Assembly (NCBI RefSeq): GCF_002234675.1
Contig: NC_019875.2
Span: 26,524,318 to 26,588,317, forward strand
Direction of reading: 5' to 3'
DNA: 64,000 bases
DNA from: Oryzias latipes
Lineage: Eukaryota > Chordata > Actinopteri > Beloniformes > Adrianichthyidae
A model generated the notes under the pieces. It ran no database searches, had not been told where the DNA came from, and saw nothing but the letters and a program-made list of their open reading frames with translations. Numbering within the stretch: the first letter of the stretch is position 1; every line of letters starts with the position of its first letter. The translations under genes were made by a program, and so were the position numbers. Positions 17,805 through 49,195 of the stretch are shown here, piece after piece.

Positions 17805-18009
<205 letters not shown>

Positions 18010-43022: not shown

Positions 43023-43107
43023 TTTTATGAATTTTGTTCTCAGGTTCAAGGTTTATGAGCATGATAACATGAGCTCAACAGTGTCATCAGAACTTTAATA
43101 TTTAATT

Positions 43108-43658
43108 TGTCATGACTATAGAACGACTGAGACCCAGATGCTGAAACCCGGAATGAGACACAGGACAGAGATGTCTTGGCAAGAAGGTAGAATTTAATAT
43201 GATGGCCAGACAGGTAGGTAACTGTTACTGGAGGTCCGAGAATGTAACTGCGGCTCGTGGCGTCACTGGTGGAACTGCTCGTTCGGGTCTGGAGTCGGCA
43301 GCGTGGGTCCGTTTCGTGAGGCAGCTGGTTCGGCAGAGGCTCGTGGTGAGGATGGAGGGAACAGACCAGTAGAGGAGTCCGGATTACGGCTGCTGTGGGT
43401 GACCACTCGTGGCTGAGGTTTCCTGGAGACAGGTAAAACAGCATATGTTAACTACTTGGCTTAAGGCAAGGCAACAAAGCATGAACTTGACGTGAGGCCA
43501 AATATGCACCATCAGGGGCAACGGACTGGCGTTGAATGAAGATCCTGGAGCTCCTTAAGAAGGCAGGTGTGTCGATGAGGTGAGTGGAAGCAGCTGGGGA
43601 TAATCAGGAACCAAGCGGAGAGGAGAGGGGGGAGGAGTCTGACAGAGGCACCATGACA
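43108..43658 (-). repeat. 3' LTR of the chromovirus
   Basis: 551 bp, matching the 5' LTR base for base as far as I can read, at a constant offset of 4899. It contains the predicted transcript-start segment (43520-43530) and a possible poly(A) signal ATTAAA (43193-43198 on the - strand). Confidence 0.95.
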
Positions 43659-43661
43659 GTA

Positions 43662-43671
43662 CCCCCCCCTC
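43662..43671 (-). other. polypurine tract of the chromovirus
   Basis: On the element's coding strand GAGGGGGGGG lies three bases before the 3' LTR and about 20 nt after the pol stop codon. It is the expected plus-strand primer position. Confidence 0.8.
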
Positions 43672-43690: not shown

Positions 43691-46600
43691 TCAAGGGCGG
43701 CGATCCGGGTGGGCCCGGTAGAAATCCTCAATGAGCGAGGGGTCCAAAATGAGAGAGCGGGAAATCCAGGAGCGCTCCTCCGGCCCGTAACCCACCCAGT
43801 CGACCAGGAACTGGAATCCGCGACCCCGACGGCGGACATCCAGGATCCGATTGACGTCGTAAGCCGGAGCACCGTCGATGAGCCGGGCGGGTGGCGGGGA
43901 AGCGGACGGCGGGCACAGAGGACTGTCCAGAACTGGCTTGATCTGGGAAACATGAAATGACGGGTGAACCTTCAGAGCCTTGGGAAGACGGAGTCGGACG
44001 CAGGTGGGGTTGATGAGTTTCTCTATGACGTAAGGTCCGATGAATCGTGGAGCCAGTTTCTTGGAGGTGGCTTGGATGGGGATATTACGTGTGGAGAGCC
44101 AGACCCTTTGGCCAGGTTGGTACTCGGGTCCCACCACCCTGTGACGGTTGGCGATGCGGCAGTTGCTCTCCTTGGTGCGGAGGAGAGCAGCCTTAGCCTG
44201 TGCCCAGATGCGTTGGCACCGCTGGATGTGATGTTGTACGGAAGGCACCGCCAAGTCCAGTTCCTGTGGCGGAAACAGAGGTGGTGAGTACCCGAGAGCG
44301 GCCTCAAAGGGAGAGAGCCCAGTGGCAGTGGAGGGATGAGCATTATGGGCATACTCAATCCACACGAGATATTGGGACCAGTCCTGCTGGTTCTGTGCCG
44401 CCAAGCAGCGGAGAGCTGCCTCCAGTTCCTGGTTCGCTCTCTCCGCTTGGCCGTTGGACTGAGGATGGTAGCCAGATGTGAGGCTGACCGTGGCCCCCAA
44501 GGCCGTACAAAAGGCCTTCCAGACCTGAGAAATGAACTGGGGGCCACGGTCAGAGACAATGTCCAGAGGGATGCCATGGTGACGGAAAACCTGCTTGGTC
44601 ATGATATCAGCAGTTTCGGTGGCAGTGGGTAGTTGAGGGAGCGGAATGAAGTGGGCCATCTTGGAAAATCGATCTATGACTGTGAGTATGACGGTGTTAC
44701 CTGCTGATGGGGGTAACCCGGTGACAAAGTCCATTGCCAAGTGGGACCAGGGCCGGCTGGGCGTAGGAAGTGGGTGGAGCAACCCCGCCGGAGCCGAGGA
44801 GGACGTCTTTGATCGGGCGCAGGTGGTGCACGCCGAGATATACTCCCTAATGTCCTTCTCCATAGACGGCCAATAAAACCTCTTACGAAGTAAATGGAGG
44901 GTACGGTGGACCCCCCCATGGCACGCCAGACGAGACGCGTGACCCCAAGTGATTACTTCGGAGCGGAGATGAGCGGGTACAAACAGTGTGCCCCTGGGAG
45001 CGGGTGGATGGTCAGAGTCCCCTTCCAGGGCTTGAAGAACCTTGGCCTCGATATCCCAGGTGACACTTCCTATGATGCAGGATGAAGGGAGGATAGATGA
45101 TAGAGTGTTCTCAGACGGACTGTATTTCCTGGAGAGGGCATCGGGTTTGATGTTGCGGGAGCCTGGTCTGTAGGTTATGGTGAAGTGAAACCGGTCAAAG
45201 AAAAGACACCAACGAGCTTGCCTGGAGTTGAGTCTTTTCGCGGAGCGTAGGTATGCCAGGTTTTTATGGTCCGTCCAGACGATGAAAGGCTGCTCGGCTC
45301 CCTCCAACCAGTGACGCCACTCCTCCAGGGCAAGTTTGATGGCTAAGAGTTCCCGGTTGCCAACGTCGTAATTCTGCTCAGAAGGGGACAGCTTGCGAGA
45401 GAAAAACGCACAAGGTTTGAGTTTTCCAGAACTCCCCTCCTTCTGTGAGAGGACAGCGCCCACCCCTGAGTCAGAGGCATCGACCTCAACGATAAATTGC
45501 CGTGAGGGGTCAGGTTGGATGAGGATCGGGGCAGAGACAAACAGTTTCTTTAACCTGTCGAAGGCCTGTTGGGCTTCGTTGGACCAGACAAAGGGATGCT
45601 TTATGGAAGTGAGGCGTGTAAGGGGAGAAGCAATACTGCTGTAATTGCGTATGAAGCGTCTGTAAAAGTTAGCAAAGCCCAGGAATTGCTGTAGCTTCTT
45701 ACGGCTGGTTGGAGGTTCCCAGTTGGTAACAGCTTCTATTTTGGATGGATCAGGGCGTATGCAGCCAGCCTCGATAATGTAACCGAGAAACTGTACAGTG
45801 GGGGAATGAAATTCGCACTTTTCATGCTTAACGAAAAGCTGATTTTCCAATAGTCTCTCCAACACCAGGCGAACGTGATGCTCGTGTTGAGCCAGATCGT
45901 GGGAGTAGACAAGAATATCGTCCAAATAGACAAAGACGAATCGATTAATGAAGTCCCGAAGGACATCGTTAACTAGCCTTTGGAAAACTGCCGGGGCGTT
46001 GGTGAGGCCGAAAGGCATTACTAAATATTCGTAATGCCCTAACGGGGTGTTAAAGGCAGTTTTCCACTCGTCCCCTTCCTTAATTCGGACCAAATGGTAG
46101 GCATTGCGGAGATCTAACTTAGTGAATATGCGAGCCTTCTGGACGGAATCAAAAACAGAGGTGATTAATGGCAGTGAGTATTTGTCTTTTACGGTGATTT
46201 GATTTAGTTCACGATAATCAATGCATGGTCGGAGGGACTTGTCTTTTTTCTGCACAAAGAAAAAGCCTGCTCCCACGGGGGAGGAGGAGGGTCGAATGTG
46301 CCCCAGGGCGAGGGCTTCCTGTACGTAGTTCTCCATGGCTGTCTTTTCTGGTCCAGATAGATTAAACAAATGACCCTTGGGCAATGGAGCGCCTGGCAAC
46401 AGGTTTATGGCGCAATCATAAGGTCTATGAGGTGGGAGAGCACTAGCTTTGGTTTTGCAAAATACTGCTTTTAAATCATGATAACAACGAGGAATGTTGG
46501 ACAATTCGACTTGGCTATGACACTCAGCGTTAGGAGAAGTAACGGAAGGGAGAGCAGAGAGAAGACAATTAGCAAGGCAATATGGGCTCCACTGGATTAT

Positions 46601-47053
46601 AGTCCCTTGAGCCCAATTAAACTGAGGATTATGCAGTTTTAGCCAGGAAAACCCGAGTACTATGGGAGTATGGATGGACTTGGTGATGAGGAAACGGATA
46701 GACTCACGATGGTTGCCTGAAGTAATGAGCAGGATGGGTTTGGTGCGGTGGGTGATGCGGGATAAGAGTTGACCGCCTAAACCGGAAGCCTCGATGGGGG
46801 TCTCCAGGGGTTCTGTGGGAATCGACAGATCATTAACAAGTTGCTGGTCAATTAAACTCTGCTCGGCCCCGGAGTCGACCAGGGCCCGTAACTCATGCAC
46901 ATGGAGATCTTGACTTAACTTGACAGGGATTAGTAAAAAATTATTACCGGCCAGGTAGATGTTTGTTACCCCTCGCAGCCTGTCTCCTAGCGAGGGGTTC
47001 GGGTGTTTAAACGAAGCGGGCAGGAGATGACAATGTGGCCCTTTGCTCCGCAA
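43691..47053 (-). CDS. pol: pol polyprotein: protease-RT-RNase H-integrase-chromodomain
   Basis: An open frame of 1120 codons in the -1 frame relative to gag, with which it overlaps by 67 nt. It has no sensible start of its own and is expected as a Gag-Pol fusion. Approximate residues in the open frame: aspartic protease with DSGA at 60-63; reverse transcriptase about 250-430 with YLDD at 376-379; RNase H about 520-645 opening at VDAS; integrase zinc finger H712, H716, C742, C745; integrase catalytic D775, D835, E871 (35 residues between the last two, DD35E); GPY motif 1006-1008; chromodomain about 1065-1115 with aromatic residues Y1065, W1086 and W1096. All key catalytic residues are present and there is no internal stop, so the enzyme set looks intact. 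Chromodomains of this kind guide integration to modified chromatin in related elements. This copy's activity is not shown. Confidence 0.95.
46968..46998 (-). promoter_or_regulatory. frameshift-stimulating hairpin
   Basis: On the coding strand ACCCCTCGC and GCGAGGGGT form a 9-bp perfect, GC-rich stem around a 13-nt loop. It starts 6 nt after the slippery site, the usual distance for programmed -1 frameshifting. The gag stop codon TAG lies at the loop's 5' edge (46987-46989). A pseudoknot could also form but was not worked out. Confidence 0.8.
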
Positions 47054-48012
47054 TAGAAACAGGCCCCCTCCATGCGCCGTCTGCGGCGTTCCTCTTCAGA
47101 CAGTCGAGAGTGTCCAACCTGCATAGGCTCGTCTGGAGGTCTAGAGGGGCTGAAGGAGTCGAGAGGGGTGGCGTGAACAGCGTGTGAGAAGTTGGAGGAT
47201 GTAGTGGTTGCGGCACGCTGGAAAACGGGCCCTCGTTCCCTTTGACGCTCCCGCAGGCGAACATCAGAGCGGAGTGCCGCAGAAACCAGTTCCTCAAATG
47301 ACCGGGCTTCGGGTTGAGAACACAGATGATCCTTAATTTGTTCATTTAAAGACTGGTAAAAGATCCCCTTCAAAGCTGCGTCGGGCCAGCCTGCCTCGAC
47401 CGCCAGAATACGGAAATCTATAACGTGTTCACTCACCGAGCGGTTACGCTGCCTGAGCGCGAGTAACCGACGGGTTGCTTCGTCCTGTTTACGTGGTTGG
47501 TCGAAAATTAACTGGAACTCTCTGAGGAAACGTTCATAAGTGAGGTGGCTTATGGGATTGGAGGAGAGGAAAGCCTGGGCCCACTGGAGGGCTTTATTGC
47601 GTAGAGAGTTGACGATCAGTGATATTTTACTGTGATCCGACTGATAATGACGGGGGGCTTGTTGGTAAATCAGCTCGCATTGGAGGAGGAATCCTCCGCA
47701 GGCTTCGACGTCACCAGTAAATGGTTCCGGTTGCAGCCGGATGTTTTCATGAGCGGAGGGTGATCCGGAAACGGAAGTAGCCGAGTTAGCCGTAGCTTGA
47801 GCCGTATCTGTTGGAACATGGGAAAAATGTCCGGTTAAATTGTTCAATGTCTGTGTCAAACCGTCCAGGCGATGAAAAAGGTCCTGTTGGGCCGCGGCCA
47901 TCTGGGATAGGGCGTCGGCCTGGCGACCAAGCAATATGCCTTGCTGGGATACGGCTAATCTGAGTCCCTCCGGGTCAGCTGGGTCGGGATTATGGCCAGT
48001 CCGTTCTGTCAT
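46987..48012 (-). CDS. gag: gag polyprotein with CCHC zinc knuckle
   Basis: 341 residues from the ATG at 48012, which lies in the last six bases of the 5' LTR (ATGACA, then GAACGG). The frame is open a little further upstream but without another ATG. A Gln/Leu-rich, probably coiled-coil stretch lies near residues 20-60. A retrotransposon gag (capsid) region spans about 90-245 with LQWAQAFL and [14 protein letters not shown] basic RRRRR run precedes a CCHC knuckle [14 protein letters not shown] at about 318-331. Gag forms the particle and binds RNA. The last codons overlap pol; ribosomes that slip at 47005-47011 make Gag-Pol. The alternative is that translation begins elsewhere, but no other ATG fits the start of the internal region. 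Confidence 0.9.
47005..47011 (-). promoter_or_regulatory. -1 ribosomal frameshift slippery site
   Basis: The coding strand reads TTTAAAC, placed in the gag frame as U UUA AAC, an ideal X XXY YYZ heptamer. Slipping back one base converts the gag reading Arg-Leu-Asn-Thr into the pol reading Phe-Lys-His-Pro, which continues through all of pol. Gag stops 16 nt downstream. Confidence 0.88.
47995..48005 (-). other. self-primer binding site
   Basis: On the coding strand AACGGACTGGC begins one base after the end of the 5' LTR. It is exactly complementary (11 of 11) to GCCAGTCCGTT in the LTR (48419-48429 in the 5' copy, 43520-43530 in the 3' copy). It does not read like the complement of a tRNA 3' end, because TGG is not next to the LTR. 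This is the layout of the self-priming Tf1/sushi group, where the RNA 5' end folds back to prime minus-strand synthesis. Confidence 0.8.
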
Positions 48013-48557
48013 GACTATAGAACGACTGAGACCCAGATGCTGAAACCCGGAATGAGACACAGGACAGAGATGTCTTGGCAAGAAGGTAGAATTTAATATG
48101 ATGGCCAGACAGGTAGGTAACTGTTACTGGAGGTCCGAGAATGTAACTGCGGCTCGTGGCGTCACTGGTGGAACTGCTCGTTCGGGTCTGGAGTCGGCAG
48201 CGTGGGTCCGTTTCGTGAGGCAGCTGGTTCGGCAGAGGCTCGTGGTGAGGATGGAGGGAACAGACCAGTAGAGGAGTCCGGATTACGGCTGCTGTGGGTG
48301 ACCACTCGTGGCTGAGGTTTCCTGGAGACAGGTAAAACAGCATATGTTAACTACTTGGCTTAAGGCAAGGCAACAAAGCATGAACTTGACGTGAGGCCAA
48401 ATATGCACCATCAGGGGCAACGGACTGGCGTTGAATGAAGATCCTGGAGCTCCTTAAGAAGGCAGGTGTGTCGATGAGGTGAGTGGAAGCAGCTGGGGAT
48501 AATCAGGAACCAAGCGGAGAGGAGAGGGGGGAGGAGTCTGACAGAGGCACCATGACA
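48007..48557 (-). repeat. 5' LTR of the chromovirus
   Basis: 551 bp. U3 would run from 48557 to about 48430. A TTAAGG word about 28 nt before the predicted RNA start at 48429 stands where a TATA box should. R/U5 then extends about 420 nt to the LTR end, which also holds the gag start codon. Confidence 0.95.
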
Positions 48558-49195
48558 TAATTAAAACAGGTAAAAATGAAAAAGAGACATACAAGGCAAC
48601 CAGATACCTATTTGGACTTGGGGCAGTACAGAATAAATAATAAAAACAATGTTTAAATAATAAAAACAATGTTTCGGTGGTTCTTCTCCAATACATTTAT
48701 CTGTAATTTGCAGCTACTCCCTCCAGAGTAAAGCTAACCTCTGACAACAATACAAAGAGGAGCTTGTGTGACACCTACCCCACCACCCTGCTCCTTCACT
48801 TTCACCCAGGCCAGGCTTTCTCCCTTAGTGTGGCTGATGTGGTCCATTTGCTGGATGAAGGGCTGAGAGGGGAAAAGGCAAAAGTTCACCTTTCCTGTTC
48901 ACATGGCGGGGAGACCAAACTGACCCCATCAAGCTTGCTTAGGGGCAATCCCCCATATGCTTCTGCTGACTGTCAGTCCTTGTCCTTCGACTACAGTTTG
49001 TCCTATCATCTAACTAGAGCCACACCTCTGCTGTTCTAGTGTCAAAACTGCTCTTACCTAAACCATTTCCTCTCTCAGGATAGAGAAACCTGCAAATGAA
49101 TGTGCACGGGAAATAAATGCGCTCTCTTTGCATAAACCATTCCTTTAACAAATGCTGAAAAACAAAAAAAACATTCAGGATGAAAAATCCAGCAA
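48558..49195. other. desert DNA right of the retrotransposon
   Basis: It begins with the second copy of the TAATT target duplication (48558-48562). No gene seen. Confidence 0.5.

Follow-up and report, generated by a model that had tools for sequence, protein, structure and literature searches.

A putative self-primer and primer binding site in an intact Tf1/sushi-type chromovirus of Oryzias latipes whose gag start codon lies inside the LTR

Self-priming relatives and the element in the window

Self-priming of reverse transcription has been demonstrated by others for Tf1 and is described as common in the Tf1/sushi group (PMC10085805, PMC6317226, PMC4600332), and some chromoviruses are stated to use hairpin priming (PMC3601003). 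As described in passages on Tf1 and its kin Tj1, Tosmo and Tcry, the 5′ end of the RNA is complementary to a site just past the 5′ LTR, and the Tf1 group has a CA at the LTR end and a chromodomain integrase (PMC10085805, PMC4600332); the element described here shares these features, the RNA 5′ end being a predicted one. One passage presents the Tf1 structure as formed by the 5′ UTR and as a "pretzel" leader needing three duplexes (PMC10085805), whereas here the primer binding site (PBS) and the gag strand of a second helix are codons, and two helices are supported while a third was not found by shuffle comparison. Self-priming is also described for vertebrate Tf1/sushi elements (sushi-ichi; Butler et al. 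2001, as cited in PMC6317226), although the citing passages give it as described or implicated rather than as measured. To the earlier observation of self-complementarity we add a covariation test within one genome, a 10-nt register, a second co-varying helix and an overlap with gag.

The window, by which we mean the whole 64,000-nt stretch of DNA that was analysed, contains a complete Ty3/gypsy chromovirus LTR retrotransposon on the minus strand at 48557–43108 (Table 1). Pfam searches of gag and of pol, the latter cut into three pieces, found gag followed by aspartic protease, reverse transcriptase (RT), RNase H and integrase, the order characteristic of Ty3/gypsy chromoviruses. A Tf2-1-like SH3 domain (60.5 bits versus a cut-off of 30) and, at the integrase end, the chromodomain that marks chromoviruses (PF00385; 36.1 bits versus 25.1) were also found, and the gag zinc knuckle match fell under its cut-off. 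The initial annotation had called this an intact fish chromovirus, and we likewise read it as intact. As the two LTRs are identical, the insertion appears to be recent. In a search of the genome (734,051,031 bases, 25 contigs) with the LTR, all 40 scored matches, the best 40 of 2190 candidates, were at least 98% identical; since only these were scored, older LTR copies would not show. A hairpin of −20 kcal/mol (46968–46998) begins 6 nt downstream of the slippery heptamer, and we take the two together to be a standard −1 frameshift signal, which is likely to link gag to pol.

Table 1. Features of the chromovirus and its predicted priming structure (window coordinates)
Feature	Position	Strand	Basis
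5′ LTR, 551 bp, TGTCAT...ATGACA	48007..48557	-	551/551 identical to 3′ LTR
3′ LTR, 551 bp	43108..43658	-	LTR-LTR comparison
Target site duplication AATTA	48558..48562 (other copy 43103-43107)	.	abuts both outer LTR ends
TATA-like TTAAGG, starting 28 nt ahead of predicted RNA start	48452..48457	-	
Putative self-primer GCCAGTCCGTT; 10-nt core 48420-48429; predicted RNA 5′ end 48429	48419..48429	-	
ATTAAA polyadenylation signal in R	48092..48097	-	
U5 strand of predicted second helix, conserved core; predicted duplex extends 48029-48063	48030..48044	-	
Local hairpin, U5 end and PBS, gag AUG in loop; competes with self-primer	47997..48028	-	
gag start codon, in the LTR's last six bases ATGACA	48010..48012	-	
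Putative PBS AACGGACTGGC; 10-nt core 47995-48004; gag codons 3-6	47995..48005	-	
ATA at offset 13 past the LTR, gag ATG position in 7/12 other lineages	47991..47993	-	
gag strand of predicted second helix, GACCCAGCTGAC, codons D-P-A-D; predicted duplex extends 47959-47986	47974..47985	-	
gag, 341 aa, stop-free from ATG at 48012; capsid	46987..48012	-	ORF and Pfam
T TTA AAC slippery heptamer in gag frame, candidate -1 frameshift gag to pol	47005..47011	-	
pol ORF, 1120 aa, no internal stop, -1 frame relative to gag	43691..47053 (frame open from 47095)	-	
Polypurine tract GAGGGGGGGG	43662..43671	-	read beside 3′ LTR

Primer and PBS in this copy and in related lineages

Eleven bases lying one nucleotide past the 5′ LTR had been noted as complementary to LTR bases 128 bp in, and the complementarity is exact, with the complement starting at LTR position 129 and the PBS at offset 1. 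Exact matches to GCCAGTCCGTT in the 64-kb window were confined to 48429–48419 on the minus strand, 47995–48005 on the plus strand and 43530–43520, the 3′ LTR copy; a fourth site has one mismatch. When the LTR was shuffled with its dinucleotides preserved, 29 of 20,000 shuffles (~0.15%) gave a complement of at least 11 nt at offsets 0–6. The view that the match arose by chance, or solely through coding constraint on gag codons 3–6, would find some encouragement in this copy, as the PBS is coding here and 20 of 4308 internal start positions, which overlap one another, also find at least 11 complementary bases in the LTR. Since these starts equal the match, it is suggestive in a single copy and calls for a test beyond that copy. 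The family itself does not offer one because its copies are too alike at both sites: all 20 LTRs read share one primer and all 9 LTR/gag junctions one PBS, counts that include two LTRs and one junction from the window's own element.

We therefore turned to other lineages. A search of the same genome with the SH3_Tf2-1 family returned 150 scored matches, from which we chose 17 loci, mostly with long open frames and from different clusters, and the LTR ends were set from each copy's own LTR pair and then shifted to CA. In this unselected count, 14 of the 17 other copies showed 10/10 pairing with the PBS starting 2 nt after the LTR's CA; copy A1 had one mismatch (9/10), copy M paired at 9/10 with an altered PBS, and copy L was unreadable. 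For the comparison between lineages we used 13 rows, namely this element and 12 lineages with one exact copy each, leaving out L (LTR pair unresolved), A1 (family of A2), M (family of E), and O and P (same as N). Lineages A–D were split by clustering, and E–Q were judged separate from LTR length and primer.

The 13 rows carry 12 different primer 10-mers, H and Q sharing one. Cross-lineage primer/PBS pairings had a mean of 6.3 and reached 10 in 2 of 156 combinations (H/Q), and none of 100,000 permuted primer–PBS assignments matched the total of the own pairs, which are 10/10 in this set by choice, as the 12 lineages were located via an exact 10-nt match. Both sides had changed in 9 of the 10 primer pairs and the tenth was invariant, a count of lineages that are related and not of independent events. 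The whole structure was 96.9% paired, versus 33–42% after the partners were slid by 1–3 columns.

All 12 other lineages have a 2-nt gap ahead of the 10 pairs, with one extra pair in the gap in lineage H and one at the far end in lineage I. In this shared register the element reads as a GA gap followed by ACGGACTGGC, and its eleventh pair (A at 48005 with T at 48419, element strand) falls inside the gap. As the common register is 10 nt after a 2-nt gap, the eleventh pair would be extra, and the core of the primer pairing is likely to be 10 bp, versus 11 nt for the primer of Tf1.

That 12 other lineages pair as exactly, with changes on both sides in 9 of 10 pairs, argues against chance or coding constraint; in these lineages the gag ATG follows the PBS, so that the PBS is not gag coding there. 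We accordingly regard this explanation as having almost no chance of being right, and the co-variation of primer and PBS in relatives settles that the single-copy match is real. Another alternative to a self-primer is that a host tRNA primes at or near the site and the LTR match is incidental. A TGG, the complement of the tRNA CCA end, does start 8 nt past the LTR here and in lineage B, and a search for the species' tRNA genes located 62 matches. However, a TGG starting in the first 8 nt past the LTR, as expected of a tRNA-primed element, was found in none of the 13 lineages, and in 8 of the 13 no TGG occurs within the first 25 nt. Furthermore, the PBS differs between lineages and matches each lineage's own LTR, which argues against a tRNA primer. 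A tRNA primer for this element is thus unlikely on sequence grounds, and incidental complementarity beside tRNA priming very improbable.

The element shows a trait of the Tf1/sushi group, a putative self-primer complementary to an LTR-adjacent PBS. The Tf1/sushi-type self-primer proposed in the initial annotation gains its support from primer and PBS that co-vary at a fixed distance from the LTR across 13 lineages, together with the domain set and a TATA-like box in 12 of the 13 rows, and these data strongly support self-priming for this chromovirus. One fish genome with many lineages in which primer and PBS change together amounts to natural mutant-and-rescue evidence.

Predicted RNA start and leader structure

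If the primer is the 5′ end of the RNA, the transcript should begin at its first nucleotide. A TTAAGG word had been placed about 28 nt before the RNA start, and the word does start 28 nt upstream; a TATA-like word lies 27–31 nt ahead of primer nt 1 in 12 of the 13 lineages (TTAAGC at −27 in D, F, H and Q), and B fits none of the patterns used. Pyrimidine–purine was found at the predicted −1/+1 in 12 of 13 lineages (C-G at 48430–48429 in this element), versus 0–7 of 13 at the eleven positions −12 to −2, where zeros at the two positions next to the step follow almost of necessity. Since pyrimidine–purine is also frequent at +3 (11/13) and +8 (12/13), inside the conserved primer, it supports the start and does not fix the base. 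An RNA start at or beside 48429 fits these data; of the earlier claim that the match fixes the start at 48429, the location agrees with the TATA-like box and the pyrimidine–purine step, while the exact base is not fixed by the sequence. The lineage set yields exact predictions for RNA starts.

Folding of the leader together with the PBS, which had been suggested as a check, gave primer/PBS pairing with a probability of ~0.95 at 436–453 nt; the probability fell to 0.73 at 460 nt and to ~0 from 470 nt. In nested folding the pairing is lost in the longer leader because U5 forms a long stem with the opening codons of gag and the PBS folds locally. The 96-nt U5–gag stem has a folding energy of −38.2 kcal/mol (z −2.84; 2 of 200 shuffles as good), and as a duplex this second helix reaches −39.0 kcal/mol, a value matched by 3 and 4 of 2000 shuffles. 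Its core consists of 7 bp, a 3-nt bulge and 5 bp. The helix recurs in the other lineages, and in 9 of the 13 rows (the exceptions being A2, D, F and I) no more than 1% of shuffles equalled its duplex; in none of the 13 was this so for a control stretch, nt 11–70. Both-side changes were seen in 5 of the 12 pairs of the second helix and 9 of 156 cells were unpaired, in columns picked by eye on the alignment on which they were tested. At the alanine codon (column 89) this element has GCT opposite an A in U5, and in the other 12 a T faces GCA or GCG; the difference in this element is synonymous and is matched by its U5 partner.

Because the second helix crosses the primer pairing, both together would form a pseudoknot, which lies beyond nested folding; our comparisons support a leader that folds as a pseudoknot like that of Tf1. 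The whole 453-nt leader folded no better than its shuffles (z −0.13; 45 of 100 as good), a search for a third Tf1-type duplex between the sequence adjacent to the PBS on its 5′ side and the LTR found none (480 of 500 shuffles as good), and the PBS flanks paired with early R no better than shuffles did. The local hairpin that competes with the self-primer (−10 kcal/mol; 5 of 200 shuffles as good) was not seen as a common feature in the other 12 lineages. Opening it would cost 10.2 kcal/mol, and primer pairing would yield −19.7 kcal/mol before any pseudoknot penalty. In a separate scan of the element for folding (224 stretches of 96 nt, step 24 nt), the lowest z-score fell at 44478–44573 (−4.84, −44.7 kcal/mol), in the integrase part of pol.

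Proposed priming route and the gag start inside the LTR

With high confidence, we interpret the site as the self-primer and PBS of an intact, recently inserted Tf1/sushi-type chromovirus with a pseudoknotted leader. By analogy with Tf1 and with retroviruses, transcription would begin at 48429 or an adjacent base, and the first 10 (or 11) nucleotides of the RNA would pair with the site just past U5; the helix joining U5 to the opening codons of gag would cross this pairing to give the pseudoknotted leader. The element's RNase H would then cut after RNA nt 10 or 11, the freed 3′ end would prime minus-strand DNA into U5, and the integrase would later trim the 1–2 nt beyond CA. In retroviruses, 2 nt beyond the CA is what integrase trimming would remove. 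Part of the predicted priming structure falls within the opening codons of gag in this element.

All 9 family junctions read, including that of the element in the window, have the gag ATG in the LTR end, so that the PBS doubles as coding sequence, as does the gag strand of the second helix. For the other 12 lineages we took as gag start the first ATG whose frame stays open through the rest of the sequence retrieved, with the LTR end of D corrected to CA. By this rule gag begins 13–19 nt past the LTR and after the PBS: at offset 13, just 1 nt after the PBS, in 7 of the 12, and at offsets 16–19 in the other 5. No gag ATG was found inside the LTR in these 12, for which the last 30–60 nt of each LTR were examined, and an AUG in the LTR thus appears to be an unusual trait, special to this family among the lineages read. 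At 423 nt as far as the LTR end, the leader is also longer than the 106–258 nt of the other lineages. We observed three upstream ATGs in the predicted leader (48343, 48381 and 48411), the first of which opens 117 codons out of the gag frame. The distance from the self-primer to the ATTAAA is ~320 nt here (48098–48418); in the other 12, ~27–166 nt separate the primer from whichever of ATTAAA and AGTAAA comes first.

The fold-back may be real and yet act mainly as a translation or packaging switch that joins or shuts off the cap and the gag start, with priming secondary. Such a role would suit a PBS that stops 1 nt short of the gag ATG in 7 of the 12 other lineages and overlaps gag codons in this element, as well as the AUG in the loop of the competing hairpin and the upstream ATGs in the leader. 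Against it stands the constant 2-nt spacing from the CA of the LTR, which is what priming followed by integrase trimming, as known from retroviruses, would predict. The clade is moreover described as self-priming (PMC10085805, PMC6317226). We consider a mainly regulatory fold-back improbable and prefer the priming route set out above.

As a tentative extension, which we hold to be possible but doubtful, gag may have come to start 19 nt further upstream, within the terminal repeat of the LTR, which would have turned the primer site and one half of the second helix into gag codons. Priming and translation would then compete for these bases: the leader would switch between the hairpin with the looped AUG, which would serve translation, and the fold-back pseudoknot, which would serve reverse transcription, and the RNA fold would dictate the first residues of Gag. 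In the lineages whose ATG comes straight after the PBS, folding back would bring the RNA cap next to the gag AUG.

The self-priming mechanism itself is known; to our knowledge, a layout with the AUG in the LTR and priming elements within gag is a variant of it. A literature search, with most subscription journals outside its scope, found no primer site inside gag of a self-primed element and no such fold in teleosts. In Ty1 of budding yeast gag starts inside the LTR, which places the PBS in gag, so that the layout alone is not unheard of; Ty1 is a tRNA-primed copia element and belongs to another superfamily than the element described here. Elements primed by tRNA are described as vulnerable to tRNA fragments aimed at their primer sites (PMC7472051). 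Since a self-primed element needs no tRNA, we infer that this one should escape silencing by fragments of that kind.

Outside the genome, protein scans of viral contigs found no relatives, a pattern scan of the same contigs gave six loci that we took as chance, and a phage collection gave one weak match. A contig filed as an Erysipelotrichaceae metagenome-assembled genome (MAG; L007:1–5172) encodes a chromovirus RT 53% identical to that of this element; a search for an LTR pair there found none, and the contig is likely to be eukaryotic contamination. A distant contig filed as a soil Acidobacteria MAG (L008:4745–5040) carries a chromovirus with its own self-primer geometry and is likely to be eukaryotic contamination, of fungal origin. 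It has a TATA word and a 9-nt primer/PBS match 3 nt past the LTR end, this end being itself a prediction, and 10 of 1000 shuffles were as good as its U5–leader duplex. Elsewhere in the window, a perfect 80-nt inverted repeat without a spacer, possibly a simple repeat, occupies 17850–18009.
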